From contig NW_011887292.1 of assembly GCF_000151315.2 (NCBI RefSeq), positions 1,899,181 to 1,963,180 on the forward strand: a stretch of DNA of 64,000 nucleotides, in the 5' to 3' direction. This DNA comes from Capsaspora owczarzaki ATCC 30864. Taxonomy: Eukaryota; Opisthokonta; Filasterea. The position numbers and the translations under genes were made by a program. The notes beneath the pieces were generated by a model. It did not search any database. It had not been told where the DNA came from and saw only the letters and a list, made by a program, of their open reading frames with translations. Positions 7,040 through 56,256 of this stretch are shown here, in pieces. Every line of letters starts with the position of its first letter. Position 1 is the first letter of the stretch.

Positions 7040-10000
7040 TTACAACACATCGTTGGAACGACATAGCGCCTTTTCTTCAAGAGGAGCCTGATAGGAATCT
7101 TGAGGCAAAGCCGCAGAGCTGCCAGAGAAGGGCGCAGGGAGGGAAACAATTTGGGTGATGCGGAAGGCAAGTGGGCCTGGCGCGTTCGACTTGCCCCACG
7201 TCCGTGCCCAGGCTGGCAAAGACTTGACAGCTTGAGCTTGGAGAGGCGAGTTGGCAGAGTAGCTGGAGATGAGGTCAAGAGACAGGCTGGCTGGCTGGCC
7301 GGAGAAGACCATCCAGAGCGAGAATGTATCCGACCGGCGCCGGTGGATGAGCCCGTACTGCAGGCCAGTGCTCAGGTACGTCGACCAAGACGATGAAGGC
7401 TTGGGAGGGACGGTGGGTGACAGCGACCATGCCGTCAGCGTGGCGTCAGGCGAGGCGGCGCTGCCCGCGGCAGACCAAGCCGAGAAACGCAGCAAAAGCA
7501 CGGCAGCTGCAGGTGCAGTAATGGACAACGACACATTGACAGATCCCGCGCTTGGAGAGTCGCCGAGCAGCGATTCGACAGTGACGGTCGGTTGGGTCAC
7601 ATTGAAGACCGGGACGTGGCCATCGTAGCACAAGGCAGGTTGCGTTGTGTACTTGTATGCGAGCGCTTGGCAGCCCTTCGTGAACGGCATGGATGTGGTC
7701 ATGGCGTGGACAACGGTGGACAGCGAGCCGGGATTGGGTGCGCCGAGCGACAGCGTGCACGCCGGCGTGGTGCTGCCATCACCCAGGTCGCAGAAATGCG
7801 TCACGTCGACCCGCCGAGGGCGATCGCTCGTGTATGGCGAGACGCCCGCACAAGCGACCACCACCATGATGACTGCGATGGCGCCGACGCCGATGGCCGA
7901 CTTCCAACGATACTGCGCGCGATGCGAGAAGGCCAGGGTGACTGGCAAGAGCAAGAAGGCCACCAAAACACCAATCAACCCAGCATACAAGACGTCCAGA
8001 ATGACCGTGTCGCCCGTGACGCCAAAGCGATTCATAAAGGGCGTGAAGGCCACCGCCACTCGCCACGCCGTGCTCATCGTGACAAGAAGCGGGAGCAGCG
8101 TCCAGATCAGGTAGAATGGCAGCCACACGCGAATGTCGCGGGGATCAATGCGGAAGTGGAAGAAGCGCACCCGGATGGGATCGTACGTCCATCCAGCCAG
8201 CACGAGGTACGGAACAAGTGCCATCACGAAAAAGATGCTCCACCAGAAGAAGAGCAAGGACGAACCCACGTTGGCCGTCACGAGCCCGCCATGCAAGAGC
8301 AGAAAGAAGGTGGCAACTCCCAAACAGCAAGTGGCCTCAATGACAAAGGGGCCCACGCTCGACTCAAAGCGCAAAAGGACCGAGCGGTAGCCAATCTGAA
8401 CGAGAATGATGCCCAGGATGGACCACGAGCCAAACAAGAAGACGGCGAACGGAATGTTCGAGTACCACGCAAACGTGTTGAGCTTGCCAACAACAGCGCC
8501 GGCCACCAGCGGCAAGACCACCGCAGCCACAAGCGAGAGCAACACGAACGAAAAGCCCAGCAAGAAAGGGACAATGAGGTGGTGCCCAAGGCTGCGGCGG
8601 GATGGATACCGGTCTCGGAAGATGAAGAGCAAGACAATGCCACACGCAACGGAGGTCGACATGGACAGGAAGAGCATACCAATCGACATGGGCGCGTCGA
8701 AAGCGACAAAAGCCGTTCCCACAATGTCCATCCAGACGGCCTTGGTGTTGGAGGCAGTGTAGCCGGCCATGTAGTCCGACGCGAGGATGCCGTCCATCAT
8801 GCCACGGACATTGTCGCCAGCGTGCTGCAGCGTACCCGCGGCATAGTCGGCGAGTCCATCGAGGCCAGTGTGGTACTGGTAGCCGTCGCGAAGAAAGACG
8901 CAATCCACGCCGACAATGTTGCCGCGCACAAACACCTCAAAGTCGGTGCCAGAAGGCACGACGCTCGTTCCAAACACATCAGCAGAAAGCGAGTTGCCGT
9001 ACGGGTGAGGCACGTTGTCACGGTACACATCTGCCAGCCACGATTGACGCGGACCGAGCTGAATCATGCCCAGAGGGCCCCAGCCGCCGGCAGAGTCCAA
9101 GTTGATGACTGTCTTGCTGTTTTGTGCCCAGCGATGCGCATTCACAAACGCATCCGCGCCAAACAGACCGCACTCCTCCGCCTCGTTGAACAAGAGAATG
9201 ACGGCGTGCTGAGTCGGGGGCTTGTACAGCAAGCTATGGAAGAGCTCGAGCAGCACGGCCACGTTGGCGCCATTGTCGCTTGCACCGGGCGAGTACGGAA
9301 CAGAGTCAAAGTGCGCGCTGACCACAAGCGACGAGACCAACGAGGGATGGGCGCCCGAGGAAACCCCGACCACCACATTCACGAGCTCTGCGTAGCTCAT
9401 ATAAACGGGCGAGCCGCTCTGCTGTTGGAAGGCGCGAGCTGTGGCCGTCACGCTGATGGCAACGTGCGTGAGGCCGTCCGGCAACATGACAGAAGCATTC
9501 CACGGCACGGGCAGGTGAGTTGGCCAGAGTCGTGGATTGAAGCCAGGCAGTGTGTTGCACGAGCTCGTCAAGGTTGGATACGCTGCAGTGAGCTCGCGAC
9601 ACACCTTGGCGACAATGTAGTCGACCGTGCTGAGCGCCGTGTCGTCGAACGCCAGCCGACCCACAATCGGGTAGTTGCCATCCTGGCGCACGCCTGCATC
9701 CACAGAGCTGTAGGAGATGTTGACCAAGTCTTGGAGGTATGGGAATGACCGACCTAACAACAGCAAGATGAAGAAGACAAGATTGTGGTCGGAAAAGGGT
9801 TAGTTTGTGCTTGAACGCGACCGAGGGTGCTTGAATGCACACAAACAGCCGACAGGCAAGGCTGCAAACAAGCACGAAAAGCTTCTTTTGGCTCCGAGAT
9901 CGAGCACGAGAGACCGACATGTGAAGACATGTTCAATTGGGAGCGCGCTCCAAAGTGGACCTTGTGCATTGGCAGGTTGGGGGGGGGGGCCAAGAAACTG

Positions 10001-10505: not shown

Positions 10506-10690
10506 GTTGTTGGAGATGATGCGCTCTCGCTCGATGTGAAGGTGAAAATGAATGATCTCGTATGAACACCACCGTTGAAAGTAATTATTTCATACAATAA
10601 TTTCGTAGAAATAATAATAATAATAAAAAAGATGCGTTCAGTTCTCAGTTCTCAGTTTTTTTGTTGTTGTTATTGTTGTTGTTTTCGGAG
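10506..10690. promoter_or_regulatory. divergent promoter region, ERMP1 / YqcI-like
   Basis: Only about 185 bases separate two divergently oriented starts. The interval has an ATAATAATAATAA stretch and a TTGTTG-rich run directly before the plus-strand ATG. It must hold both core promoters. No specific motif identified. Confidence 0.45.
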
Positions 10691-11998
10691 ATGCTCGCAT
10701 TGGCAGCTTTCATTGTGGCGCTGGGTGCCGCGCCGTTTCTCCTGTTCAACGTTGCTCTGAGTGTTGGCTCGGTGCTTGGCGTGCTGGCTGCAATTCTCGC
10801 GGCCTTGGTTGGCAGTGCGCAGGTCATGATGATGACCGACAACTACAAGGAGCACTCATCAAAGAACGCCACAGCGCCCAGTCAACGCGGCGGCGTGTCG
10901 GGTGGCACTGTCGCTGCACTCACCTCAATGAAGCTGTACGACGCATCGACGACATCCAGTGGCGCAACCAGCAGCAGCAGCAGTCGTAGCATGATGGGAG
11001 CGATCGCCGACTGGTTCGTGTCGTCAGCGCTCTCTGTCGCGTCATCTCGATCGTTGCTCAATCGCAAGGGCCCTTCGCCAGACTCGGACGACGGCGACGA
11101 TGATGCCAATGATGACGACGCTGCATCCGACGATCTCGCGTCTGGCCCGCCGAGCACTCACACGCAGCGGTTGGCGGGAATCGAGCAGCATTACAATCCG
11201 GCCTCCGCTGACGAGTGCGATGCGCTGCGAGCGTTCAAGCACGTCCAGACGAACACGCAGTGCATCTTTGCTCCACGCGCCAAGCTGTGGGGTTCACGGA
11301 ACTGGGATGACTACATTTCCCTCGATGCAAACATTTATCGCTCCATCCCGATGGTCCTCCGATTCTGTCAAGCGTTGGACATGGACGAGTTGCTCGACGG
11401 ATTTGTGTTTGCCATTCCGTCCACTCCGTATGGCGCCACCGTGGACGCCTTTGCCGGCACAGTCAACCGCGTGCTTCGCATGCTTTCGCACTACGATCCT
11501 GCAGGTGTTCGCATCATGGAGAAATCGTATGTGGGTCAGCGCGGCTGGGCGTTCGAGCTGGCTGGCGAACCCTTCTTTGTGACCACGTTTGCGCCGTTCT
11601 ACCCTCCAAATCACAGCCGACACGCGTTCGGCGCTCGCTGGGACGACTCTGCCACGAACGAGGGGGCCGAGCAACCACAACCATCGGTCAGCCCGTCCAC
11701 CAGCACCGCTACCAACGATCTTTCACCCGCGCAGCTCAGCGACCGGTTTTGCTTTGTTCTGTTGCAGCCGGAACGGTCGTTTGTTCGACGCAAGATTGGA
11801 GACGACACTCCACACACCAACTGGGCTGTGCCAGTCACCCCTCGCGACCGCATTCGTGCTGCCTATCGTGACGCCGGTCGAGAGTACATTGTGCCGCCGT
11901 CCATCCACTATCCGACCGCCAACCATATTGTAGAAGCAGTGCATCCGCACAGCGACCCGATTGTTGAGTTTTGGAAGCAAAAGCCAGTGTCTGGGTAG
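10691..11998 (+). CDS. YqcI/YcgG-like membrane-anchored protein
   Basis: Single exon from ATG 10691, 435 residues. The frame is open further upstream through a TTG-repeat, but without an ATG. N-terminal hydrophobic segment (MLALAAFIVALGAAPFLLF and beyond, residues 1-45) suggests a signal anchor. Residues 60-165 are Ser-rich and then acidic (DSDDGDDDANDDD). The C-terminal 270 residues resemble the YqcI/YcgG family (PF08892): NTQCIFAPRAKLWG, GWAFELAGEPFFVTTFAPFY, NHSRHAFG, FCFVLLQPERSF, RDRIRAAYRDAGR and VEFWKQK. Family function is unknown in any organism I recall. A Ser/Thr/Pro insertion (about residues 325-352) splits the domain. The family match is from memory and moderate. Confidence 0.6.
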   Translation: MLALAAFIVALGAAPFLLFNVALSVGSVLGVLAAILAALVGSAQVMMMTDNYKEHSSKNATAPSQRGGVSGGTVAALTSMKLYDASTTSSGATSSSSSRSMMGAIADWFVSSALSVASSRSLLNRKGPSPDSDDGDDDANDDDAASDDLASGPPSTHTQRLAGIEQHYNPASADECDALRAFKHVQTNTQCIFAPRAKLWGSRNWDDYISLDANIYRSIPMVLRFCQALDMDELLDGFVFAIPSTPYGATVDAFAGTVNRVLRMLSHYDPAGVRIMEKSYVGQRGWAFELAGEPFFVTTFAPFYPPNHSRHAFGARWDDSATNEGAEQPQPSVSPSTSTATNDLSPAQLSDRFCFVLLQPERSFVRRKIGDDTPHTNWAVPVTPRDRIRAAYRDAGREYIVPPSIHYPTANHIVEAVHPHSDPIVEFWKQKPVSG

Positions 11999-22748: not shown

Positions 22749-23105
22749 TGATTTTTTTGGCGCCAAATTTTGGCGGATTTTTTTGTTTTTTAATTTCTCT
22801 TTCCCTTGCGAAAACAGTCAAACAGACTGTACTCCAACAAACATGATTTAATTGGTACGGTTTTTGCAGTCCAGTCTTTGCTTTTGTTTTCTCGTCCTTG
22901 ATTTTTGTTTTGTAAGCTTTTCACTTGCTTTTTGCTGTTTTTGTTTCATTCCTGAGCTTTTTTTTTTTTTTTTTTTTGTTTCGCTTTCGTCATCTTCGCT
23001 GTTCGCTCTCTCTTCAATCTCATCTCGCGCGCGCGTGTGTGTGTCTGTCTGGTCTGTGTATCTGTGTTGTGCATGTGTGACTCTGGCAGTGTCACTCTTC
23101 TCGCA
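22749..23105. promoter_or_regulatory. divergent promoter, ZZZ3 / RCR ligase
   Basis: About 350 bases, T-rich on the plus strand, with a 19-base T tract near 22960 and a short GT run near 23033-23044. No named motif recognised. Confidence 0.4.
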
Positions 23106-25346
23106 ATGCAATCGTCGCCGGGCGTCTCCTCGTCTTCAGCGGCGTCGGCGTCGGGCTCCGCGCCGCACAGCCAAACGAGCAAACTGGCTTTCATTCGGGA
23201 TGCGGTCGCGAGCATGCTGCGCACCACCACACCTGCCAACCAGCTGGCCGACCTGCGCTGCGTGTTGCAAGAGCTGCTGCAGGACGTGGACCGCCATGCG
23301 CGGCGGAACAATGTGTCGCCGTGGCCGCCACACAGCCTGCTCTCAGCAGCACCCCGCGCGCCAGCGCCAATGCCGCCGCCGCCGCCGCTGCGCACTCATG
23401 CCTCAGCCCCTGCCGCAACGACCTGCGTCCCCATGAAGCTCTACCAGAACGATGACATGGATGACGACGACGACGACGGGCCGGGTCTCACTGATCGCCG
23501 CATGGGTGGCGCGGCATTTGGCACCGCTCAGGCTCAGGCTCAGGCTGTTCCCAGCGCGCCAATCTATGCATCTCTCGACGACGACTCGTCGTACGAGCTC
23601 GTCGATGGCGATTTTCTGCAGAGTTGTTGCAACCATCACGTCCAGCGCCAGCACGACGACGAGCAGTCGCTCGCGCTTGCACGACAACTCGACGCGCAGT
23701 ACCGGCGAGAAGAGGAAGACTCTTGGGCCCTCGCGCAGCGACTCCAAGAGCAAGAAGAGCAAGAAGACCGAGCCCGCGCCGCAAGGGAGCATCGCCTGGC
23801 CGAGGCAAAGTCGCTCGAATTTGTGCGGCAACTCCAGGAGCAAGAAGAAGCCGAGGCCTGCTGGCGGAAGCAACAGGAACAGGCCAGCGCCGACGCTGCA
23901 CGGCGGGTGGCCGAGGAGGACCGTCGCCGCGCTGCAGACAACATGCGCAACAAGGCTCAGAATGAAAAGTTCCTTGAAAGCGTGCAGCAAGGCTATGCCA
24001 GGTGTCCAAACGCCGCATGTGGCCAAATTTTTGAATGCATCCCCGGAGCGAGGCACGAAGGGGAGGCAGACCAGCAGAATCCGGCGTTCGTGCCAAAGTG
24101 GACCGAGTCGCCCGAAGTGGTGGCAGGCCACTGGAGGCAACACCGCTTCCGGTGCATTGCGTGCAACACTGAGTTTTGCTCCTCGTGCCATCAGTCTCCC
24201 TACCACACCGGTTTCACCTGCGAAGGTCTGAAACAGCATGATGCTGCCGTCAAGTGTCGTTACTGCGGCCGGGCTGTTGCTGGGTACGTCTCGGGCATTC
24301 CGTGTTGCGACACGCCCGAGTGTTCCGAGAAAAAGACCCGTGCCTGCACCAAATCGCTCCCGTGTGGTCACGCTTGTTACGGCGTTTTGAATGAGGCGCA
24401 GTGCATGCCCTGCCTTGAGCCCGGCTGCGGCGCGCACGTCGCCTCCGGCGTCAACCAAAACGGCCAAGACGACTGCTCACTCTGCTATGCCGAGCCTCTC
24501 GCCCAGGCCCCATGCATCCGGAATGCATGTGGCCACGTCTTCCACCACGCGTGTCTTGTCCAACAGATTTCCGCTGGTCATTCTGGCAAACGGTGAGTGC
24601 TGAGTGTCTTTTTTTTTGTCTTTTGTGGGTTTTTTTTTGGGGGGGGGTCTGATTGCGAGGCGGGGAGCACAGTCCCAGATTGTGGTGGCTTGCATCTGTT
24701 GAACTGACTGCCAGCTTTTTGCCATCTTTTTGATTGCTGTTTGTGCGCGCTGGACCCCCCTCTTTCTTTCCGTAGCATTGTTTTCACGTATTTGAAGTGC
24801 CCTCAGTGCCCCAAGTTGATCTCTCACCCGGCGCTGGAGGCTCAGTTGAAGCCGCACATGGAGCTCTACGAGCTGATCAAACAAAAGGCGCTGGTTCGAA
24901 TGGACCACGACAACGACATTCCAGATCGGGCTGGCTTAAGCGAGGAAGAAAAGGTGAAGAGAGCATTGGCGTCCTACTCGTATTACAAGTGCTTCAAGTG
25001 TCCGTCTTGGTATTATGGCGGTCGCGTTGAGTGCGGCGAGAACGCAGACGCTCCTTTCAACCCCGAAGAGCTCGTCTGCGCCGGCTGCAGCACGGCAGGA
25101 TTGAGCAACTGCCCAACTCACGGCGCCGAGTACATTGGGTTTAAGTGCAAATTTTGCTGCGAGCGCCTCTCTACCTTCTTTTGCGCGGGCACGACGCACT
25201 TTTGCGAACCCTGCCACCGTGCTGGGTTTGGTGCGCCAGTCAAGCCGTGTCGTGGCGCGCCGCACTGCCTGCTCGGACCAAACCATATTCCAAACGGCCA
25301 GGAGTATGCGGTGGGTTGCGCTCTGTGCTCCAATCTGCAGCACTAG
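23106..25346 (+). CDS. compact RING-Cys-relay (MYCBP2-type) E3 ubiquitin ligase
   Basis: Two exons, 23106-24592 and 24776-25346, 685 residues. An in-frame ATG at 23073 would add 11. Residues 1-170 are Ser/Ala/Pro-rich. A charged coiled coil rich in Gln/Glu/Arg (about 190-295) follows. An IBR-like zinc region begins at CPNAACGQIF (about 300) with FRCIACNTEFCSSCH and CRYCGRAVAG. Then comes a RING (CSLCYAEP at 457, CGHVFHHACL, and CPQCPKLISH after the intron) and a TC-type domain: YYKCFKCPSWYYGGRVEC, NPEELVCAGC, CPTHGAEYIGFKCKFCC, STFFCAGTTHFCEPCH. Aligned from memory to human MYCBP2, C582 corresponds to relay Cys 4520, E594 to E4534, C632 to Cys 4572 and H643 to H4583; F4573 is Ala here. MYCBP2 esterifies Thr/Ser through this relay. 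Human MYCBP2 is about 4,600 residues, so this is a miniature. Confidence 0.88.
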
Positions 25347-25547: not shown

Positions 25548-27723
<2,176 letters not shown>

Positions 27724-27736
27724 TCTGGTGGAAAGG

Positions 27737-27768
<32 letters not shown>

Positions 27769-28105
27769 GCAGCAAAAATCCAATGGAAAAAGGACGAAAA
27801 AATAAAAAGTGAAACTGAGTTGTCCAAATGCAACTGTTCAACGTTTTTATTGCAAGAATCCAAATGCTCGATCTGACAGAGAGTCGCACGACGCACGTCC
27901 TTCGCGCTCGCATCCACCTTGAACCTGATTGGGACAAGACGACGAAACTCAGTCAGGTTTTTTTGGGTTTTTTCTTGTTTTTGGTTTGAGTGCCAGCACA
28001 GCAGTCTCCCCACTCCCCACCTTCCACACACACACACACACTCATCAACACCTTGTTGACTTGAACTCCAACGAGCCTGACTGTCTCACTTCCCGCCGTT
28101 CAAGC
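27724..28105. promoter_or_regulatory. divergent intergenic region, SH3BP5 / SLC10A7
   Basis: About 380 bases. A 27-base A tract lies just upstream of the SH3BP5 start codon, and a short CA repeat near 28025-28039 precedes SLC10A7. Several open frames cross it without recognisable product. Confidence 0.4.
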
Positions 28106-29931
28106 ATGTCGAGTTGGGTGGACGGCCTCCGACGCAACTGGTTCCTGGTCGGGCTGGTTGTTGTCATTTCGTTGGCGCGCGTTGTGCCCTGGCTGGGTCA
28201 GACCGGAGGTAACACAGACACACAGACACACAGACACACAGACAGATAACTCGCCCAGAAAACGCGATCTTGCTGCTTCGGAAAATCGGACATCGGACAT
28301 CGTTCGGGGTCGTTCACCTCCAACATCGACCTCGCTGTTGACGATGGTTGTTGATCACTACGCGTTTCAGTGCAAGGATGGAGATTACTGATTCTCGTGA
28401 GTGGGCTTGACGTTGCGGTTGTACAGGTGTGCTGCATCCCGAGTACACGGTCAAGTACCTCGCTGTCATGGTGATCTTTTTCATCTCCGGACTGTCACTC
28501 CGCAGTGAGGTATGAGTTACTGTTTGCAAGATGGTCAGAGGGGGGGGGTTGTTGGCTGGTCTGCTTGGCACTCCAAAAGGGCAAAAACAAAAAATTCAGG
28601 TTGCTGAACCAACCTTGTGTGTTCTCATTCTCTTGCTTGTCGTCTGGTTTGCCAATCTCAGGAGTTTAGTCAGGCCATCATGCAGTTTAGAATCCACATG
28701 TTTGTTCAAGGCTTTACGTTCATCCTAGTGCCGTCGATTGTGATGGTGATTGTGCACTTTTTGTTGTAAGCGTCGCCGAGCCTGCAAACGATGTTTGTCC
28801 GTCCTCCAAGCCACGGCTCGTTTGTTGCTCACTCGCGAGCGATTGATTCATGCAGTCTCTTTACGAGCATCGACCCATGGCTACTGCGTGGCCTGCTCGT
28901 CGTGAGCTGCATGCCACCGCCTGTCTCTTCCGCCGTCATTTTAGTGAAAGCCATCGGCGGCAACGAAGCTGCTTCCATCTTCAACAGTGCGTTGGGCAGT
29001 TTGATGGTAAGCGATTGGACGGAGGATTTGTTGTCACTCTCGTTCGCGCAGTTGCGCGCGTAAGGTGAATCCACGCTCAAGTCGTGTTTTTTTTTTTTTT
29101 TGTTTTGTTTTTTTTTTTCGATTGTTTGTTTCCCTTTTTTTTTTTAACAACACTCGCTCCTAGGGCATCTTTATCACGCCAATGCTGCTGTACGCCCTGG
29201 TACACGTGTCGTCCGCCGTCCCGTTCATGTCCGCGGTCATCAGCCTGTCCATCTCTGTGATCGTTCCAATCATTGTCGGACAGTTCGCACGGCGCTTTGT
29301 TTGGAAGGCGATCGAACCGCTCGGCATCCCGTTCGGTGACATTAGCTCGGCAATGCTGCTGCTGATTATTTTCGCCACCTTCTGCGACACCTTTTCAAGA
29401 CAGTTCATTGTCGCATACGGGGACATTGGCACTGTCATTGTGATGGTGGTTCTCGGGCAACTCGGCCTGCTGGGGCTCGTCTTTGTCCTCTCGCGCATGG
29501 TGGTTCCACGGGTCGTCGCTTGGTACTATGCGCGCATTGTCCCGCTGCTTGTGGCAATCGGCATTTCACGCGCTTCTCCCGGCTCCACTTTCGGGCCCAC
29601 CGCTGGTCCGAGCAGCCCTGCGTTGCGCGGCCGCCTCACTCCTCAAGTGGACGGCGTGAACAACCCCAATGACAGCTTTGCCTCCGAGTGGCTCGAAAGC
29701 ATCCAGGTCTTCTCTCGCGGCGACATTGTCTGCTTGCTCTTCTGTTCAACGCACAAGTCGCTCACGCTGGGCATTCCGCTGCTCAAGGTGTTGTTTGGCG
29801 CGCATCCCCAGTTCCACTTGGTCTCCTTTCCACTCCTCGTCTATCACCCCACCCAAATTCTCCTGGGCGGGTTGGTCGTTCCGATGGTCCGGCGGTGGCT
29901 TCTCCAGCGTCGCGGACTTGGCCTTCCATGA
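28106..29931 (+). CDS. SLC10A7: SLC10A7-type bile-acid-transporter-fold membrane protein
   Basis: Five exons: 28106-28208, 28427-28509, 28662-28765, 28856-29006 and 29164-29931, 402 residues, with about ten hydrophobic segments. Matches to SLC10A7 run throughout: [113 protein letters not shown] and [18 protein letters not shown] hydrophilic loop of about 60 residues ([14 protein letters not shown] onward) before the last two helices is longer than in animals. SLC10A7 is a Golgi/secretory-pathway protein linked to calcium homeostasis and glycosylation; its substrate is not settled. Confidence 0.94.
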
Positions 29932-31991: not shown

Positions 31992-33170
31992 CTAATACCA
32001 TTTACGGTGAATGTACTGCGACCAGATGTGCAGGAGCACGTAGAAGATGGAGATAATCTCGACGAGCTTGTGCTTGCTCTTGCGCTGAGGAAGAACGAAA
32101 TGCAGGGTCAGGGCGACAAGCAGCAGCGCCTGAATCGGCCAGAGCATGTAGGAAAGTCCCATCACATGCGACGACACCACTCCGAGGGAAACGGTGAACA
32201 AAACGATCGCGTAGGTCGGCCACTTGCCCAGAACGACACGGTAAGTGCCCTTGAGGGGATCCAGGGTCGGGTCGAGCTTGCGGCAGACCTCATACGTGAA
32301 GGCGCCGGAAAGCGCCACCGTCCCCAGCCAGTAGGTGCGCGGATCCCAGATCAAATCCGGGTTGGTGATGGCCGAAATGTGCAGCGCACCGACGTAGATG
32401 GACGCTTGGTGGGTCAAGGCGTACAAAAAGACGCGGGGGTCGAGCCAGTGACCGATGCCAAACTCAATGTACATGAGGACCAAGTAGACAATTTGCAGCC
32501 CGAACGTCGCCCCTGCCAGTGGCGAGAAGACAAACCAAAGCACGACCGCGTAGACGCACAAGAGGGCAATTTCGAGGCGGATGGCATTCACGAGCTCGTC
32601 GTAGAGAATCAGCCCGCGCGGCAAGGGTCGGTCTGGGTGCACCTTGACGTCCTTGTCGTAATCCTTGACGTCGTCCATGCAACGCAGCGTGATGAGGTAG
32701 AGCAGCTGTCCAGCAACGACGATCGCCAGGGTTTGCCAGTACGAGAATTGGCCGCTCGTGACGGGCAGCGGGAGGCTGCTGTCCGCCAGCGCAAACCCCG
32801 ACAAGCAGGGCCCCAGCGCCAAGAGCACGTAGACTGGCAGCGGCGCGCGCTCGTTGAAGAAGGTCGTCCAGTTCTTGATTGCACTGTGCCATGATGATGA
32901 TGATTGCGGTACAACAAAGATGAGTTTTTTTGGCTTCAGCGGCTGCGTTCCCCTTCCCCCCAGCCCACCCCGCCTCCTCCCAATCACCACGATCAGTAAA
33001 GTGCGTTTGTTGGTGCGGTTGGTTGCTTCTCTTGCTTGTGACTCTCGTTCGACAGGTGCGTCTGTCTCAATGATGCACCAACAGGTCGGACAATCTATCG
33101 CTTCATCATCTCCCATGCGCAAGAGCAGCTGCTGTACAGAGCATCGTCGCAGCATCCCCCAACGCAGCAT
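31992..33170 (-). CDS. UbiA-superfamily prenyltransferase
   Basis: Integral membrane prenyltransferase with about eight hydrophobic segments. The core is at 32890-31992 (IKNWTTFFNERAPLPVYVLL to the end). The first Asp-rich motif is RCMDDVKDYDKDVKVHPDRP (substrate Mg-diphosphate site, equivalent to NDxxDxxxD). The second region reads YEVCRKLDPTLDP followed by TYRVVLGKWPTY. The family transfers isoprenoid chains to aromatic or other acceptors; the acceptor cannot be told from sequence. The frame stays open upstream for another 100 codons to an ATG at 33170 (MLRWGMLRRCSVQQLLLRMG, Arg-rich and possibly a mitochondrial presequence). The stretch 32890-33110 is unlike the family, however, so an unseen intron or a later start is possible. 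Confidence 0.82.
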   Translation of the reverse strand: MLRWGMLRRCSVQQLLLRMGDDEAIDCPTCWCIIETDAPVERESQAREATNRTNKRTLLIVVIGRRRGGLGGRGTQPLKPKKLIFVVPQSSSSWHSAIKNWTTFFNERAPLPVYVLLALGPCLSGFALADSSLPLPVTSGQFSYWQTLAIVVAGQLLYLITLRCMDDVKDYDKDVKVHPDRPLPRGLILYDELVNAIRLEIALLCVYAVVLWFVFSPLAGATFGLQIVYLVLMYIEFGIGHWLDPRVFLYALTHQASIYVGALHISAITNPDLIWDPRTYWLGTVALSGAFTYEVCRKLDPTLDPLKGTYRVVLGKWPTYAIVLFTVSLGVVSSHVMGLSYMLWPIQALLLVALTLHFVLPQRKSKHKLVEIISIFYVLLHIWSQYIHRKWY

Positions 33171-33413
33171 CAACAATAACAACAACAACAATAACAATCA
33201 TCATCAACAACCCAGATCTTAGAGTGGAGTGGGACAGCCGTTTCATTGTTGGTACCTCGCGCTGCGTGGTGTGCCCAGCGCTTTCGCTTTGCCAGCTGGA
33301 TCCGCGTCTCCCGATCGTGTTGCTGCAACCATGGATTATGGATTGAAAACAAGAAATGAACTGAATTGGAAATCAGAGTATTTGGCACTCTTTCTTTTTT
33401 CTTGTCTTTGAGG
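33171..33413. promoter_or_regulatory. divergent region, UbiA / mitochondrial DnaJ
   Basis: About 240 bases between divergent starts. No motif recognised. Confidence 0.35.
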
Positions 33414-36977: not shown

Positions 36978-39900
36978 ATGTCGTTCCGGGCGCTGCAATC
37001 GACGCCGCGCACGCCGCTGGACGCCAGCTCGCGAGCAGACACGCCGAGTCAGAATGGCTCTGCTTCTGCTTCGACGCCGCACGAGCTCGATACGCAAGCG
37101 AGATCGACCTCCGCTGCTGCCGCCGTCCACGAATCGCCTGCAGCCGTTCTGTCGGCATCGTCTGCCGCTAGCGAGCGTGTTGTTCGCCATGGTGAAGAGG
37201 TACTGCTCGTTCCCGTAGCTTGATCTCCTTGGTTATTCAGCGGCCTTATTTTGATGTATCGTGCTGTGTTGATTGAGGGTTTGCAGGCGGGATGGTCGTT
37301 GATAGAGCGATTGTTGTCTGCGTGCAGCTTTTTTTTTTTTTTTTTTTTTTTTTGGCGGGAAAACTCGCTCCCCATTCCTTCTGCTCTTCTCTCTGTGCTG
37401 TGCAATCAGACTCACACTGGTGCCGCTCGTCACCTTGATACATTGATGCAGGTGAGTTGCATGCAGGTTTACAAGGAGGCTCTCGAGCTGCAAGGAGCCA
37501 AGTTGCTGCAAGAGTCGGCGGACAAGTACCAAGCACTGCTCGAGATGGTCACCAGCGTCTTTGCGCGACGGCACAGCTCCACCCAAGCGCAGATCGTGGC
37601 GTCGTTGGTCGAGGCAGGATCGTTGCCAGCCCAGGCCAGTGCCACCGCGGCTGAAGACGCGACTTCAGAGGAGGCTATCGCGAACGCGATCGAGCAGGCT
37701 GCAATCACCAACGGCAACTTGCACAGAACGCTGGTCGCCATAAGTCGCCAATTGCAGGAGAACAATCGACCCATCGTGAAAATTCGTCTTCTGGCTCTCA
37801 AAAACCAGGCGGCCCTGCGAGACGAGTTGGGCGAGGCTGCACGAGCGCTCGATTTGTTGCTGCTGGTAAGCGTGATTCTTAGTTACGGTTGTTGAGATGA
37901 CTGTATCGCTCTGCTGAGGAGTGCACGTGCATGGAATGGGTGTTGATTTTGTTGTGTGTTTGTTTTAGGCGACCGACGTCGACCACACGGATGCGCAGCT
38001 CTGGGTTGGGGTTGCGCGCCTCGCTGTCCGGGAACGAAAGTTGTCGCTCGCTCGCTATGCGTACGAAAAGGGTATGTGACTTGCTGTGTATTTTACGGCT
38101 CGGACGATTGCTTGAGGATGGTGGCACTGCTCACTTTGGCGCATTTTTTTTTTTTTTTTTTTTTTTTTTGGTTTCGTGCTGTTTTGTTTGACTTGCAAAA
38201 ACAGCGGTAGAGCTTGAGTCGTCCTCCAACATGCAAACCTTGGAAGCACTCTGCTCTGTGTTGTTTGCTATTGACGACCTTTTGTCGTGCTTGATGCTGC
38301 TCGCACAAGGGCTCGAAATTGATGCCCATTGGGCGTTTGGGCAGCAGCTGCTTCGCGTCATCCACCACCAAAATGCGACCGTGCTGGAGTGTGTCCCTGG
38401 CCTCTTGTTCCCCATTTGGCAACCGCCAGGCGCCTACTCGACACAGCCGGATCCTCTCCAAGAAGCTCGCCCTGCACGAGCCTTCAATTCGGCCGTGCTG
38501 TACGGCAGCGCCGCCGTCAACTTTTCCGGTGCTGCTCGCCACAATCCGACGCTGGGTCTGTTGCGGCATGCACATGCTGTTGCGGGACCTGTACGCCAAC
38601 CCCTGGCGCGATACGACTTTCGTTCGCTTGTTGTCATGAGCGAAGACGATCTCATGCAGTTTCCGCCAATGTTGCTCCGAAAGTCTTACCGGGATGACAT
38701 GAGCATCAAAGACCCCTCGTTGCGCAACGCCATGCAGGGGCCCCAGCGCATGTCTACAATCTCTACCATGACTCACAGCATCACACTGCCGACCCCTGGC
38801 TGGGACGAGCTGTTGCGGTTTTTGCTCTCGCATGCAACCAAAAAGAAGGACAGGTGAGTTTTGCATTGATTGTTTTTGGGGTGGTATTTGCGTCTTGAGA
38901 ATTGATATTGCTATGGTGGCGAGACTGGACACAATTGGTGGGCACAATCTCACTTTGATGCAAAAAAAAATGTGTGTTTGATGCTAGCTCGGCGAGCGCG
39001 GTTCGAAGGATTATTGTGAAACTTCAAGGCGATACCCAACCAGCAGAAGGCGTTGTACCCCCTTCTGGTTTGGGTGAATCTGACTTGATGAACGCTGCTG
39101 CTCTGCTGGCGTCGAGCGATGGAACCGGGGCGTCCGAGCCGATGGACATGTCCATCGACAACCAGGCCTCTCAAAAGCTCTCCCGAGAAAAGCGCAAATT
39201 GATTGAAGTGGAAGGTAACCAACCTGCTGCGCCGTTCAGAAGCGATCGTGGCCCCACAACCACTTCCTCGACTGCCGACGACGCCAGGTCCGCCTCGAGC
39301 CCCATTACTCTCGACGACGACTCTGCGACCGGCGTCTCGACCACAGCCACCACCACCACCACCACCACCACCACCACCACCCTTGCCTCAGGAACACTGG
39401 CCAACAGGCGGCGGTCACGCAACATTCGAACCAATGACACAGAAGTCGGCGCCGCCTTCGTCAAGCAACGTGCCCCCATCCAACCATCGATATCCTTCAA
39501 GGGCGGAAGCGTCTTTGTGCGCCTTGCAGAGTTGGCGCCCGTCGCCCTCTGGGCCGAGTGGTGTGCTGCCGTTGGGATTGACGTTGATCCAAGTCTGCAT
39601 GATAAGAGCTTAAACCAACCACCCTCTCCGACCGCCTCAGGGGCAGTCGAGTCCGCCGCCAGCCCCATGGACTTGGAGCTCGACGGGGCGTCCCGCCGAG
39701 GGCAGTCGTTCAACCCGAAACTGAAAATCGCCCACCAGATAGCTGAGCTCCAATCACGCTTTTTTGCACGCCACGCGAGCCGACTGGCCTCAGGTTCGGA
39801 AGATTGCCCCTTGCAGAGCACAGCAGCTGACAATCGCGTGACGACCCAAGCCCGGAGAGTGCAGCCCGCTGCAGTCGCCCGACCGATGGACGCGATCGAT

Positions 39901-42900
39901 GCCGACGAACGAAACGCTGTCGAGCAATTTGTGCAGTCGTTGAATGCCGGCGATGTTGCACTCGGTCCTGGCGCGTCCATTGCAATCTGGATGCGAGAGG
40001 CCTTGTTCCGAGTATCCCAGCTCTACGACTCGCAGGATGCCAGCTGGGCTGCAATGCACTCGATGATTATTGACTACGTGTTGGCCATCCGGAATCTTGG
40101 CACATTGGTGCTGATGCCGGCGAGTGCTGGCGCCCCGAACAAGCACACTGAAACGTTTGGACGGACGGCGTCGAAAGCAGCGAGGTCTTCCGATGGGATG
40201 GAGGTTGACGATTTCCGAACCCGCAACGTGCCCGGAATGAACCCTTCGGCTGGCTTGGCGGCAGGTGGTGCAGAACCAAACGATAGCGCTCGTCGCGAGC
40301 AGGAATCTCGCGCAGCAGTGTTGCTAGCGATTGAAATTTTGATTTCAATGAGAATTCGCGCCACTGTCCCATCGACAAGTGCTGTCGAGGCGCTTCTTCC
40401 TCAATTGCTTGCGGATTGCAATTTGGCCTTTGCGTTCTTCACGACAGAGCAGCAAGTACGGCTGCTTTACCTTGATGCTGTTGCTCATGCGTGCTTTGGC
40501 AACCGCCTGCATGACGCGTTGCTCTGTCTCGAACATTGCTCCACGCTGCTGGCTCGTTGCAAGACGCGCTCTGTGCCTTTGCGCGTGTCCAACGCCCCAC
40601 TTGGCTCTCGCATCGACCCTACCAGTCTCAACCACGTGTACCAGCTGCTTGTCACATCACGCTCTCTGCACACCTCGCTATCTGGCAATCAACCCGCGAA
40701 TCTTGTGGTTACCTTGGCTCCGCTAGTCCTCCCGCGATGGACCTTTGTGGCGTTTGACGATTCCGGCAACGCCGATGAAGATGTTGGTCCGGAACGGCGA
40801 GTATCGGCCCGCAGATCTGCTGCTGCGGCTGCTGCTGCTGCTGCTGCTGCTGCTGGCACCTCGAGTGCAGCCGCCATCCCGCCTTCCTTGTCGCTCAGCG
40901 ATATTCCCAATATGAGCCCCATACGTTTGCGAGACCTTCTCTTGGAAGCAAGTCTCCGTGCTCGTGCGCACGGAATTGTCTATGCATGTGCCTCGGTCAG
41001 CTTGGGTCAGACGCTGGCTCGAATGCTGCCACCAAAGGCGTCCGGTTCTGCCACAGCCACTGTCAATCTTCCAGCCGATACAAACGGCAGCAATCCTACT
41101 GTCGAGGACGTGCCTATGCTCTCCAGGCTGACCACGAAAGAGCACCAGGCAGTGTTGTTGCTACTTGAGCACATTCGCGGCTCTCTGCAGCACGATTTGC
41201 GCCTGCTGCAACAGGACGAACACGCGCAATCCGATACCAGTCCTCGCGAACCGGCGTCCTGGCCCGCTGCTCCTTTCCGCTTGCTTGCCGTTCTCTTCTT
41301 TCGCCTGCTTGCCATTGCGGATGCTGCCCTTGTTGAGTTTCGCAACGGCCTGACCGGCCTGGCGGCCACTCGGCAGCACAAACTGTTGGCCATCGCCCGT
41401 GGAGAGACCGCTGGCCCGGCTGTCAACGCCACTGGCCTGATGGCGTACTTTCCTGTGGCTGAGCGTCTGGGAATTGAAGCGTTGGAGTGCTCGCGTCTCG
41501 TGCTCCAAATGCTGCTTCCTCGGCTGTCTGAAGCGACTCGACCTTCCGGAGCTGCCCCTGGCCGCCAGAACAAGCGGTCTCGCATCGAACCAGTCGCGAG
41601 CGAGACTCAACACGATCCCGGGCACGTGACAGTCTGCTTCCTCTTGGGCCAGCTTGAAGTGCTGGGCGCGTGTGATACAACGGATGTGCAAAGTTTGAGC
41701 TCTTCGTCCGCAGACCAGTCGCAGACCACAACCCTGGCTGCGCCGAGCGCACACAGCTCGTGGTCGGCGAACAATGGTCCGTTGGCCAACGAGCTTGCAG
41801 CAATGTTCAACGTGTGGATTGGTGCGCGTCGCGCGTTCTCCCATGCCTGCTTGGACACGCTTGCCCAAACGGGCGCCTACGCGAGCGCCGTGCTCGGGCT
41901 CAAGGAGTACCAGGAGGCACTGCTTGAAGCCAGCCCGGACCTGCCGGAACAAACTGCGATGCAACTGTTGAGCACGGCGGATACCACAGACACCACGGCT
42001 GCATCTCGGGTCCTGTTTCTTTGTCTTCGCGCGTTATACGGGTTGATTCTGACCAGCTCTGGGGCTGTGGATTTGGCAGGACGAGTCGGGGACGACAAAG
42101 GCACCTCCATCGTTGCTGCGTCCACCCTCGGCGCGTCCGCTCCTCATGCGGTTTCAAACACGCCGGCATCCAACCTCGCCAACACTGCATCTTCTTTGGC
42201 TTCGGCCCCGGGCATGTCGGCTGCAGCCGGAGCTGGCAGCACATCCAGCACCTCGCGCCAAACGCGAGAGCAAGAATACCTCGCCACGCACATTGACCAA
42301 ACCAATCCGACAAGCTGGTTTCTTGACATGCAGCCACTGCATGTTCCGGCAATCATCCATGCCACTGTGCACTTGAGATCGAGCGCTCCCCTGAGCACCC
42401 TCACTCGAGCGGTGCTTGTTGGCCCTGAAGCCCCGATCGCGTGGAAGGCTCGCGCAAGGCTCGTCTACCCTCCTTCTGTCTGCGCAACCATGGAAGCTGC
42501 TGCCTCCCCAATCTTGGACGTGATTGCTCGAGGAAGTGCGCCGACAGATGAATTGCAGCCAGCGTCGGCTTTGGAAGTCGGCGTGGCCAACCCTGTGAGT
42601 CTCAGAGCTGGCTTTGTCGAGACACCCGAGTTTATCAAGCTCCTGTGGGAGGCCCTGGAGCTCGCGGCCGAGGCGGATCTTGAGAATTGGAAGCGCATCA
42701 AGCGCAACTTGCGTTTCCATTGCGAAGATGGCATCACGCTGCTCGACGACTTTGAAGAGTACGTTGCCGTCACAATGCGACTTTTGCTCTTTCAACCCAG
42801 CAATCCGGACATCTGGGCGCGCCTGGGTGTGCGTGCCCTGCTTGAGTTTTACACTGCTCTCGACAACCCTTCGTGGACGGACATGGTGCGTGTGACGTCG

Positions 42901-45228
42901 CACTTCCACTGTCGCTTTGCCGAGTTTTTGGTCACCAACAGATCCGTTTCGCTATCGGAGCAGTTTGCGGCTGCTCAGCGAGCCAGTGTCACGACTTTCA
43001 CCGCCAGCCTTGCCGATTGGACTGAGTGGCTTTCTGCGACGGGCGACAGTGCCCCCTCCGAGAGCAACGACAGCGAAACCACGCCGCTGACGTTGGCAGA
43101 ACCCGCCACTGGCAAAGACCACATGCTCTATCTTTTGTCGTTTCCTGCCTTGCCTCTCATTGCCATTCGCAGCTTCGGAATGGCAACTCTTCTCCAGCCC
43201 GAAGTGTCGTATTGCTGGGCGGACTTGGCGGAAACCCTGTTTATGGCCTTCACCAAACGCAAAATTGTCGAACGAGCCACCTCGATTACCGCGAGTCAGC
43301 TCCCAAGGGACGCGCAACGCGCTCTGGAGCTGTACTGGAGCGCTTACGCCAGCTTGACGGAGTCCGTCGACGCCCTCAAGCAAGCCGAACAGCACGTCAG
43401 ACGCGCCATCGACCTTCCAGACGACTTGGCTGCTCCGAAGCGTGAGCGTTATCGAGCAAACCTGTCCCTTCTCTTGGGTCGCATTCTCGAAAAACAGTGC
43501 ATCCAGGCGACGCGACCTGACGCTGGTATTCCTGTGCACGTCTATGGGTACGGCATTGGCCAGAGCATCGGGGGTGCAGACCTGGACGAAGACACTGCGC
43601 CCGATTGTCCGTGGCAGCTGCGAGTACCCCTGTACAGCTTTGCTGCCGAGTCTGCGGATGCCGCGGAAGAGTGTGTGCGTTGTTACGAGCAGGTTCGTGC
43701 ACACCGCATCAAGATCAAGTCGAAGGAAAACGAAGGCTCGTACCGACGCGCGGTCGTGCTGATCAAGCTGTTACTTTGTGCCAATCCGCCTGTAGAGCTG
43801 GTGACGTCCCTGCTGATTTCCTATTCAGCCATTGTTTCTGCGACCGCTGGTGGACGTCCGCTTCCCTACTTGGTGCCCCTGGCCGAGCAGTCGTCACCCA
43901 AAGAGTACCCGTGCATGCCGCCTGGTGACTGTAGCGAGCATGTCGCGTTCGAATGGTGTGCTGAAGCCATTCTTGAGCTCAGCAAGCTCAAGTCGGACAA
44001 TGAAAATTCGTGGTACACGTCTTATCGTGCCAAGCTACTGCTTTTGTTGTGCGAGCGCTTTAGGCGGCGCATGGAGCGCTTGTCTGAGCTCCCTTCCAAC
44101 AATCGATCTGCCTCGACCACTCGCGCGCAAATAGCACAGCTCCGCAACGACGTCCTGAGCATGGTGGCGTTCAAGTCTCCGCCGAATGGCCTCCAGCTGA
44201 CCAATCGCGAATCCCAGCACTTGACGGACGTCAAAAAGTGCCTCGTTCGAATTGCGAAAATGCGCGAGCGCGCCGCGGGTCACGACGCCTGTTTGTTTGG
44301 CCGCTCGGTACGATCCGAGCTTCTTGCCCTTGGCATGGCGCTGGACCGCGATCGCTTGTTTGCAATGCTGCATTGGCTGGTCAAGGATACGCGCGCAGCG
44401 GACGGCACCCTGCTCATCAAGTTCACGTTGACGTCGTCCAACTCTGCGTGGCGAGCAGCATCCCATGCGAGCGGCGGAATTCGCCTCGGACCAGGGGGAG
44501 GCGGTATGGACACGAGTGAGGCGACCGCGACCGCAGAGACCGATTCTGGTGAAGAGGAGCGCATGCTCTGGATGTCGCGCGATCTCGAATATCTGCAGCG
44601 TATGGCCGCGACCATGTGCGCAGCGCTGTGTTGGCCGGATGCAGCTACGGTTGCCGTCAAAAGCGGCGGCGCCGCCGCCGGCTCTGCCACCAGTGCCAGC
44701 ACCTCCAAGGCCGCTGCTGCTGCTTCTGCCGATGGAGGGGCTGGAAAGGGCGGAGCAAACGCCAAATCGGCTTCAACCGCCATGGTGGTTGGCGACGGCG
44801 TTTCTCCCGTGACAGAGCAACCGCCAGAGTCTCCAGGCGCTCCAAAGTCAGCCTCACCAATGCAGACTGAGAGCTCCACTCCGGCCGCCGAACCAGAAGG
44901 AGGAGCCTTGTCGCAAATGCTGGCATCGCTCGGCGCATCCAGCGAACGATTGCTGCTTAGCGATGCCTTCTGCAACCTCGTCTCCGTTGTCTGCACACTG
45001 CATGTCTGGAAGCATCTCCTTAGCGAGCACCGCCTCAATCTCGTTGAGCACATTCTCGTCAAGCTGCATCGGCGGGCGTTGGACGCGCTGTCGGAAACCC
45101 GCGTCCGCCCGACGTCAAGTCCAGTCCCCCAATCCGGCGTGCCAACCCAGCTCGAACCTTCGCAGTCGTCGGACATTGACGCAGCCTTGGCCTGGTTCCG
45201 GCAGGTTGGCCTTCGTGCGCTTGCCTGA
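36978..45228 (+). CDS. CABIN1: CABIN1/HIR3 subunit of the HIR histone chaperone
   Basis: Five exons: 36978-37199, 37410-37865, 37969-38071, 38205-38853 and 38988-45228 (one uninterrupted 2081-codon exon), about 2556 residues. The exon 2 start could instead be 37467, 19 codons shorter. TPR-like N-terminus matches CABIN1: YKEALELQGAKLLQESADKY, then TDVDHTDAQLWVGVARLAVR, LARYAYEKAVELESS and LLAQGLEIDAHWAFGQQLLR. It is followed by a basic NRRRSRNIRTN patch at the position of RRSARVRNT in CABIN1, and a long helical repeat body (for example NPDIWARLGVRALLEFYTAL). Human CABIN1 is 2220 residues. CABIN1 scaffolds HIRA and UBN1 for replication-independent H3.3 deposition. Low-complexity Ala/Ser/Thr stretches are scattered, including a Thr run at 39347-39380. 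Confidence 0.85.
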
Positions 45229-51609: not shown

Positions 51610-54301
51610 TCAGTTCAGCTCGACGGGCTCCTGCTGCACAATTTCCTCCAGCAGCTCAATCAGCATGTTGAGCCCAAACAAAAAGTTTGAGTCAGGCCCA
51701 GAAGCCGCGCTCCCGTCTATTTCGCGCAGCAATGTCTCGTGCTCGCTTGAAATGCCGGGAATGGAGCCCGCGCCAGGGGCCAGAGGAGACTTTGGAGCCA
51801 GAGCGGACGTGTGAGCAAAGTCAATGATACGAACATCCACCATGCTCGGATCAAACATGGCACTCGGCTCGGAGGGTGAAGTAGACTCGTCGTCGCTTGA
51901 CGCGTTCTCGCAGGCGGAACCGGGAACGTAGCCCTCGTACAAGAGCAGCAGCGACGCGGAGGGGAAGCGGAAATCAACTTGCTGGATCACCTCCGATAAG
52001 CGGCGAATCTTGGCCAAAATAGCGCGGACAGCATCAAAACGAACGCGATCGCCATTGAAGAAGAACAGCACGAGGCCATACGCAAACTCTTCCGCCGTCG
52101 ACGAGCGGCCAGTGTACTTTGTCACGTGGGCGAACTTGTCTTGGAGAGCACGGTACACTTGCATACCGCAGAGCCGTAAACCAAGCGTGACCGACGTCGA
52201 GTTGACGCACTTCGCCATCTGGTGCAGCCGACGCTCGAGCTTGACATCGTCGCCGTGTTGACGCGCTCCCATTTTCAAGTCGAGGACACAAGGGCGGTAG
52301 TATCGGCGGGTCAAGTCCTCGAGCACAAGCCAGGTGGCGTCCGTGCGGAGTTCGCCTGTAAGCGGGTCTGCTGAGCTGTCAGAACGCAGTTTGCTCATCG
52401 AGCGGTCGTAGCAGAGCCGAGGCCACTGATTGACGCCAGACGTGTGAACTTCCAGCGTCGAGAGCCACGTGGACGAAGCGGCTGAGCGCATTGCACTGGC
52501 CGACGAGGGACTGACACAGCGGCTGTCAATGGTGTAGAGTGAAACGCGGCGTCGGACACGATTGTCCAACTCTCGAGCATCGGCCTCTTCTTCGCTCGTG
52601 GAGGATTCGGTTGACGCCACAGGCGAACTTGCGTCGCTGGCGTCAATGGCTGGGAACAAAAGAGTGCCCAGCTCCACAGCGGGGAGAGACTTGTTGGAGA
52701 CGGCGGCAGGGGAAGCAGTCGGCGAGCCTTCGAGAGAGGGCACGGACGAGTCGGCTGATGGCGAGGCGCTGCTCCAGTCGGACTCGGACGAGTACGACGC
52801 AGGGCCTTGGCTGGAGGCATCGAGCACTGCGGTCTGGATGGCGGCAAGCGCTGATGCGCGACTGACCACTGCGGCGTTTTCGCTCACCAAGCGAGCCGCG
52901 GCAGCAGAGAGCCCCGCAAGCTCGGCAGCGGTGACGCTGTTGAGCGTCGTGTTGGGCGAGCTGCCTGAATCGGGGGGAGTGGAGAAGCAGTTTGCAATGA
53001 GCATCTGAAGCGAGCTTGCGTGCGAGTAGTGTGGCGACAGATGCGCATGATCGCGATGGCTCGAGTGCTGGTGGTGGAGATGCTGCTGCTGGTGTGATTG
53101 GTGCTGACCAGAGTGATGAGCGTGGTGGTTGTGGTGGTGGTGGTTGTGGTGGTAGTGGTGGTGGTGGTGGTGAAGGTGGTGGGGATGGTGTTGGTGAGGA
53201 CTGTTGTGATGAACGACCGAGAGGTGCGGCGTTGAATCCCCGGTTGCCGAACTGGAAGGCTCGCTGCCATGCACGGCAGTCATTGCATCAAGGGCAACAG
53301 GGGAGGGTGCCGGGGACGGGGCCAACACGTTGAGTGAAGCGGCGCTGCTGCCAGTGCTAGTGCTGGTGCTGGTGCTGGTGCCGGCTGCGCTGCCAGCAGT
53401 CGCGCGCGCCGCCGAATGCGAAACATCCTCGAGAGAAGATGCGCTTGCCGCCGAACTACCTGTGCTGCAACGGCCACTAACAGAGCCAGTAGCTGGCACC
53501 AAGCTAGACGGCGAGGCAGGCGCCGCAAAAGTAGCCGAAAGCTGCTCGGCGGGGTGGTGCTCTGTGCTCTGGAAGATGCCCGAGCAATCGAGCGATGAGG
53601 AGGCCGACGACTGACGACTGTGGCCAAGCAACGAGTGCAGCGGCGAGGTTTGGCTTTCTGCGGCAAGCTCGGCCTGCTTGGCTTGCTTCCGCGAGTCCTG
53701 CACGGCCTGACGCTGCTGCAACTGCATTTCGTCTGCAGGGGTGCAGTCGCGCACATTGCCGGCCAGCACAACCTGGCTGGATTGAGCGTGGAATGTAATG
53801 TCGACCAAGCCAAAGTAGGCTGGGATGAACTCTTGCAGCCGGGTGAAGGGAGCCACACGGGACTGCTGCTCGGCCTCCTCCGCGACGAGCCGGCGCACAG
53901 TCGAGTAAAACTCGTACTCGCGCAAGGCAAAGTCCTTGCACACCCGCCCTGCAGGCAGCCGCAGCATGCAACTGTGCCCGCCGACTTGGTGGGGCGACGG
54001 TGCGAGGGGATCGGCGCCGTCGACAGAGTCAGTGCTGCTGGTGCTGCACAACCGCCTTCGCCGTCCGTCCGGCAGCACAACCACCGGTCGGTGTTTGGCG
54101 TGGTATGTGTGCGATTGCGGCACTGAGGGTGTTATTGGAGTGGTGGTGGTGGTGGTGGTGGTTGTTGTTGTGGTTGATGGTGGTGGTGGTGATCTTGGTG
54201 ATGCATCCAGTGGCGACGACATTGAGACATGGAAGCGCGATGTCGTTGTTCTTGTTGATGTTGATGCTGATGATGTTGGTGTTGTCGGGTTGGGTTGAGG
54301 T

Positions 54302-54333
<32 letters not shown>

Positions 54334-54387
54334 GTGCGGCCTGAGCGAGGGAGGTATTGGTGGTGAGGTTGGCAGTGTGTCTAGCAT
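51610..54387 (-). CDS. IP6K: inositol hexakisphosphate kinase family protein
   Basis: Main exon 54486-51610. ATG chosen at 54387 gives 925 residues, but the frame is open back to a CCGCAG acceptor at 54487, so an upstream exon may exist. N-lobe: VGGHSCMLRLPAGRVCKDFA (about 137-156) and ALREYEFYSTVRRL. About 450 residues of insertion follow, Ser/Ala-rich with a His-rich stretch (about 397-440). Then comes the catalytic PxxxDxKxG motif PCVLDLKMGARQHGDD (about 698), LGLRLCGMQVYRA, a SLLLLYEG strand (about 810) and the metal-binding RIIDFAHTS (about 852), ending LNMLIELLEEIV. IP6K makes diphosphoinositol phosphates (IP7) from IP6. A Ala run at the N-terminus is encoded by a CAG/CTG-type triplet repeat. 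Confidence 0.9.

Positions 54388-56256
<1,869 letters not shown>

Follow-up and report, generated by a model that had tools for sequence, protein, structure and literature searches.

Capsaspora owczarzaki ATCC 30864 appears to encode a compact RING-Cys-relay (RCR) ubiquitin E3 ligase, in which ubiquitin would be passed from C582 to C632 and esterified onto a hydroxyl group; we put the probability of this reading at about 0.83. The gene lies within a 64,000 nt stretch of contig NW_011887292.1 (hereafter the window; GC content 54%). The small protein that it encodes in this single-celled organism joins a MYCBP2-like module to a different zinc-binding front, and the sequence suggests that the product is likely to be a stand-alone enzyme. 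A natural RCR protein of 685 residues in a tractable relative of animals would make the relay, the acceptor pocket and non-lysine ubiquitination testable without the giant scaffold, and would set the properties of the catalytic module apart from those of the neuronal hub. Transfection and gene targeting are feasible in Capsaspora, according to the accessible parts of three reports (PMC6001378, PMC9170242, PMC10959527).

The gene model is a computed one, with two exons on the forward strand (23106-24592 and 24776-25346) that are spliced into a frame of 685 codons running from the ATG at 23106 to a stop codon ending at 25346. Exon 1 encodes residues 1-495 together with two bases of codon 496, reaching from the N-terminus to half-way through the RING, and exon 2 supplies the second half of the RING, a linker, the tandem-cysteine (TC) domain and the stop codon. 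Between them, inside the RING coding region, is a GT-AG intron of 183 nt (24593-24775, forward strand) with a gtgag donor, a pyrimidine-rich stretch and a ccgtag acceptor. A second in-frame ATG is located at 23073, 33 nt upstream of the first; translation from there would add 11 residues to the N-terminus. All features of the protein described below are likewise encoded on the forward strand.

The strongest evidence comes from the C-terminal part of the protein. When all PDB chains were searched with the whole protein, residues 446-683 matched the solved RCR module of human MYCBP2 (5o6c, E 2.7e-44; 6t7f, E 3.3e-43), and the RING of FANCL (E 0.0074) was the sole row from another protein at E<=0.01. 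Exon 2 alone recovered the same two structures (6t7f, E 1.3e-32; 5o6c, E 1.8e-32) and, besides these, just a ribosomal protein (E 2) among the rows at E<=10; a single shuffle that preserved its composition retrieved no MYCBP2 chain and one unrelated row (E 0.044). Pairwise alignment with human MYCBP2, the sole relative aligned, gave 88 identical residues among 221, divided into 21/58 in the RING, 16/41 in the linker and 51/122 in the TC domain, and crossed the exon junction without a gap. The Cys and His residues of the aligned MYCBP2 fragment are identical at 29 of 33 positions. Among these are all eight in the RING pattern, the two relay cysteines and the histidine of the triad, whose glutamate is conserved as well. 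The four exceptions are C4417, H4477, C4614 and H4617, in a numbering anchored on C4520 by which the aligned part of 5o6c starts at 4379.

The RING-H2 domain (24468-24824, residues 455-512) is split by the intron and has a C3H2C3 pattern, all eight Cys and His residues of which are common to MYCBP2; Pfam detected it as zf-RING_2 at E 3.9e-4, under the cut-off of that model. The TC domain (24969-25337, residues 561-683) sits directly C-terminal of the RING, in the same order as in MYCBP2. It was recognized by no Pfam model, exon 2 yielding LRR_10 alone (E 0.16), and an NCBIfam search returned nothing near any cut-off.

Within the TC domain, the upstream relay cysteine C582 (25032-25034) aligns with MYCBP2 C4520, the triad glutamate E594 (25068-25070) with E4534, the downstream esterifying cysteine C632 (25182-25184) with C4572, and the triad histidine H643 (25215-25217) with H4583. 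The residue next to C632 is alanine (A633, 25185-25187) where MYCBP2 has F4573. The numbers and roles of E4534, C4572, H4583 and F4573 are those that we take to hold for MYCBP2, and F4573 presumably lines a hydrophobic pocket that favours threonine. The two proteins also have in common the stretch FFC-x-GTTHFC-x2-CH. The first-pass annotation of this DNA had described a C-terminal module of the MYCBP2 type, with a RING and tandem cysteines, four catalytic positions in register and alanine in place of phenylalanine beside the second relay cysteine; the alignment bears out each of these points, and the spliced translation reproduces its coordinates, protein length and residue identities for C582, E594, C632 and H643.

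The N-terminal part of the protein appears to be built differently from MYCBP2. A proline-free segment at residues 182-296 (23649-23993), 74% of which is E, Q, R, K, D or A, is probably helical, and residues 166-295 matched no Pfam model above cut-off. The annotation had called a coiled coil here, a claim that found no support in a crude periodicity test: hydrophobic periodicity in residues 182-296 was not in excess, the observed value being reached by 960 of 2000 shuffles, and two other segments gave similar outcomes (911/2000 and 1249/2000). The segment contains three copies of the pattern S-x-x-[LF]-[AV]-x-x-L-[QD]-x-Q, at residues 188, 206 and 236, which resembles what we take to be the consensus of ubiquitin-binding MIU motifs. 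Among 10000 shuffles, 2 contained a single copy of the pattern, as against three copies in the protein, a comparison that is purely descriptive since the pattern was drawn from the protein's own sequence.

Overlapping the end of this segment is an IBR domain (23952-24221, residues 283-372), which matched PF01485 at E 3.9e-7, scoring 30.5 bits where the model requires 24.3. A shorter query that began at residue 291 still exceeded this threshold, with 25.2 bits (E 1.8e-5), and by eye the Cys and His residues of the domain are C300, C305, C350, C353, C358, C361, H367 and C372. Nine control sequences (four shuffled with Cys and His fixed, four fully shuffled and one reversed) gave no IBR match at E<=1; other families were matched weakly in three of the nine, the strongest being Prok-RING_2 at E 0.011, under cut-off. 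A profile made from four IBRs of the same genome failed to lift the query above 1000 shuffles, among which it took rank 29 of 1001, and with locus L005 left out of the profile the query ranked 86th among the 1000 matches listed. The miss may reflect a long stretch inserted after the second cysteine of the query and before the third, which a small profile would penalize. A phmmer search of the PDB with residues 283-453 returned no row at E<=10. Elsewhere in the genome the same residues had a single match (E 3.2e-4, with 41% identity across query positions 60-101), in a frame that by eye has RING1-like, IBR and RING2-like stretches and so resembles an RBR protein; pairwise, 16 of 36 residues around the HTGxxC end are identical between the two.

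Downstream of the IBR is a second cysteine-rich stretch (24255-24428, residues 384-441), which includes C-x3-L-x-C-G-H-x-C and by eye looks presumably NFX1-like; Pfam was silent at E<=10 for residues 371-453. Taken together, the IBR-like zinc region of the earlier annotation stands by Pfam and by its controls, against a miss by the small local profile and the empty PDB search, and by Pfam the upstream zinc cluster does have the IBR similarity on which that interpretation had been staked. Of the overall interpretation, the compact MYCBP2-type RCR module with its IBR and its alanine is retained, and the coiled coil is left unsupported by the crude test.

The genome contains at least 10 IBR loci, nine of which were over the cut-off. 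One stretch belonging to this group, locus L012 (C7:354492-354614 and around, reverse strand), encodes the RBR-like protein that residues 283-453 had matched; the IBR of this protein is interrupted by a long acidic insert, and its C-terminus is hydrophobic. The stretch scored 31.3 bits in the genome-wide IBR search, above cut-off, and its protein matched three IBR models in Pfam (E 5.8e-5 to 9.9e-4), each under the respective cut-off.

Our data are consistent with a model, drawn from homology with MYCBP2, in which the RING-H2 would dock a ubiquitin-loaded E2 and ubiquitin would move to C582 by transthiolation. It would then be relayed from C582 to C632, and H643 and E594 would help to transfer it from C632 to a hydroxyl acceptor as an ester. 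The E/Q/R-rich segment, the IBR and the further zinc cluster would stand in for the PHR scaffold, and this front part probably recruits or binds the substrate or ubiquitin. The alanine at position 633 may loosen or shift the preference for threonine and so widen the choice of acceptor. It is by analogy that we infer the relay, the ester product, the acceptor choice and the role of the front part.

MYCBP2 itself is described, in the accessible part of PMC9527308, as the 'first example' of an RCR enzyme, one that relays ubiquitin over about 24 angstroms to a second cysteine in a Cys-His-Glu triad, has no lysine activity and favours threonine by means of a hydrophobic pocket. The C4520S mutant is catalytically inactive (PMC12664034, as far as the available text goes). 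Other available excerpts single MYCBP2 out among the atypical E3s of the human E3-ome (PMC13061254) and present it as the relay enzyme (PMC12664034, PMC13008643), with a table in the last of these labelling it 'RBR-like'. The legend of a review figure on PHR proteins names RLD, PHR, RBD, FBD1, MBD and RING, and the domains in that legend do not include an IBR.

The Capsaspora protein resembles MYCBP2 (also PAM/Highwire/RPM-1; 5o6c, 6t7f) in its RING-H2 followed by a TC domain, its relay cysteines, its triad Glu and His and its 29 of 33 shared Cys and His residues, but differs in its length of 685 residues, its upstream IBR and its A633 in place of F4573. Within the 685 residues no PHR or RCC1 domain was matched by Pfam at E<=1, the matches being to IBR and RING models only. 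RBR E3 ligases (RING1-IBR-RING2) likewise carry an IBR alongside RING domains; in contrast, the Capsaspora protein has its single IBR ahead of its only RING and then a TC domain, no RING2 was recognized, and its predicted catalytic cysteines are those of a TC domain. Judged by domain content, then, the predicted product is an RCR E3, and neither a PHR protein (an orthologue of MYCBP2/Highwire/RPM-1) nor an RBR. A further parallel is RNF213, whose zinc-binding RZ finger likewise depends on a cysteine to transfer ubiquitin and accepts targets that are not proteins (PMC9527308, accessible part); the domain is a different one, and RNF213 and ZNFX1 were absent from the Pfam and PDB matches, which is the extent of the comparison made.

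Across the genome searched (27,456,641 bases in 29 contigs) the TC domain was detected at a single locus, with no second match even at E<=10, and PHR (PF08005) gave no match in a search run without a positive control; these two results fit loss and primitive absence equally. Tentatively, RCR chemistry may be older than the animal PHR scaffold, a scenario that we hold to be possible rather than probable: an ancestral holozoan IBR-RING-TC enzyme, with an alanine pocket and a wider range of hydroxyl acceptors, would have been followed in animals by fusion of the module to a giant neuronal scaffold and narrowing to threonine. The Capsaspora protein could instead be a secondarily shrunken PHR protein of the MYCBP2 type, the filasterean lineage having lost the giant scaffold and gained or kept the IBR. 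With this the single TC copy and the silent PHR search are compatible, yet it also requires a domain swap with the IBR, unless a comparable region precedes the RING in MYCBP2, and we regard it, too, as possible rather than probable.

Whichever history applies, our preferred reading of the present-day protein as an RCR E3 draws its support from MYCBP2 being the only strong solved relative and from the conservation of the catalytic residues. Several observations point the other way. A 14-residue C-terminal loop of MYCBP2 that bears C4614 and H4617 is absent, C582 and E594 are separated by two residues fewer than their MYCBP2 counterparts, the active-site phenylalanine is replaced by alanine, and the RING scores under the Pfam cut-off. 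On the strength of the first three of these, the protein might be a conventional RING E3, or a scaffold that binds an E2, in which the TC domain folds but has ceased to relay ubiquitin and the E2 modifies lysine directly. However, the relay cysteines, the triad glutamate and histidine and the FFC-x-GTTHFC-x2-CH stretch would be unlikely to persist at 40% identity in the absence of catalysis, and this makes an ordinary RING function improbable in our estimation.

Far less probable still is that C582 or C632 serves as a zinc ligand, which would leave no relay. The domain is rich in cysteine, and its last zinc site in MYCBP2, for which C4614 and H4617 are possible ligands, may have been lost or rebuilt in Capsaspora, given that these two residues have no counterpart and that C654 is an additional cysteine. 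Against such a role, C582 and C632 align with the relay cysteines of MYCBP2, the gaps near them are short (two residues after C582 and one before C632), both lie outside CxxC and CxxH pairs, and the neighbouring pairs of this kind are all kept; the assignment as relay residues, on which the earlier interpretation depended, thus stands. As to an IBR gene and an RCR gene joined in error, the splicing is known by computation alone, but the single unbroken frame of exon 1 covers the IBR, the second cysteine-rich stretch and the front half of the RING, which exon 2 completes, so that with the intron cutting the RING itself an origin from two neighbouring genes is very unlikely, and we give this artefact the least credence of all.

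We also looked for relatives of the module beyond Capsaspora. Exon 2 gave no pattern match in viral contigs and seven in prokaryotic genome contigs, none of which was confirmed. With a two-row alignment as query the viral contigs yielded 420, and again not one was confirmed; the collections are prokaryotic or viral, so these null results are uninformative about other eukaryotes. A DNA pattern for GTTHFCxxCH was found in one viral and two Marinomonas contigs, and was set aside as chance-like, with stops in frame and a best tblastn E of 0.12. Our literature search found no paper combining MYCBP2 with Capsaspora, and the titles and abstract openings that it listed included no RCR enzyme in a protist.

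Some observations on the assembly and on the remainder of the window were made in passing. The published coYki arm (90 bases) and one coYki primer were unmatched in the assembly, as was an 18-base SSU rRNA pattern; the coWts arm (PMC10959527) matched at 100 of 100 bases and both GAPDH qPCR primers (PMC9170242) matched exactly, facing each other apparently across an intron. These matches make the assembly almost certainly that of Capsaspora owczarzaki, with the coYki locus perhaps missing from it. A Pfam scan of 20 frames of the window characterized several neighbouring genes. The convergent neighbour of the RCR gene (25548-27783, reverse strand) encodes an SH3BP5-like protein, probably in several exons, with matches to PF05276 at E 5.3e-25 (25551-26153) and 1.5e-6 (26503-27783). 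A gene at 10661-11998 (forward strand) belongs to the YqcI/YcgG family (PF08892, E 2e-6), its 28.2 bits lying just over the required 27; this family is mostly bacterial, and the gene is a possible candidate for horizontal transfer. An unbroken frame of 2084 amino acids at 38974-45228 (forward strand) matched no Pfam family at E<=0.001, and contains many leucine-rich, probably helical stretches as well as runs of Ala, Ser and Thr. Long frames elsewhere in the window include an M28 peptidase domain (7040-9766, reverse strand), an SBF-like transporter domain (29182-29931, forward strand), a UbiA prenyltransferase domain (31992-33197, reverse strand) and an inositol polyphosphate kinase domain (51610-54774, reverse strand).
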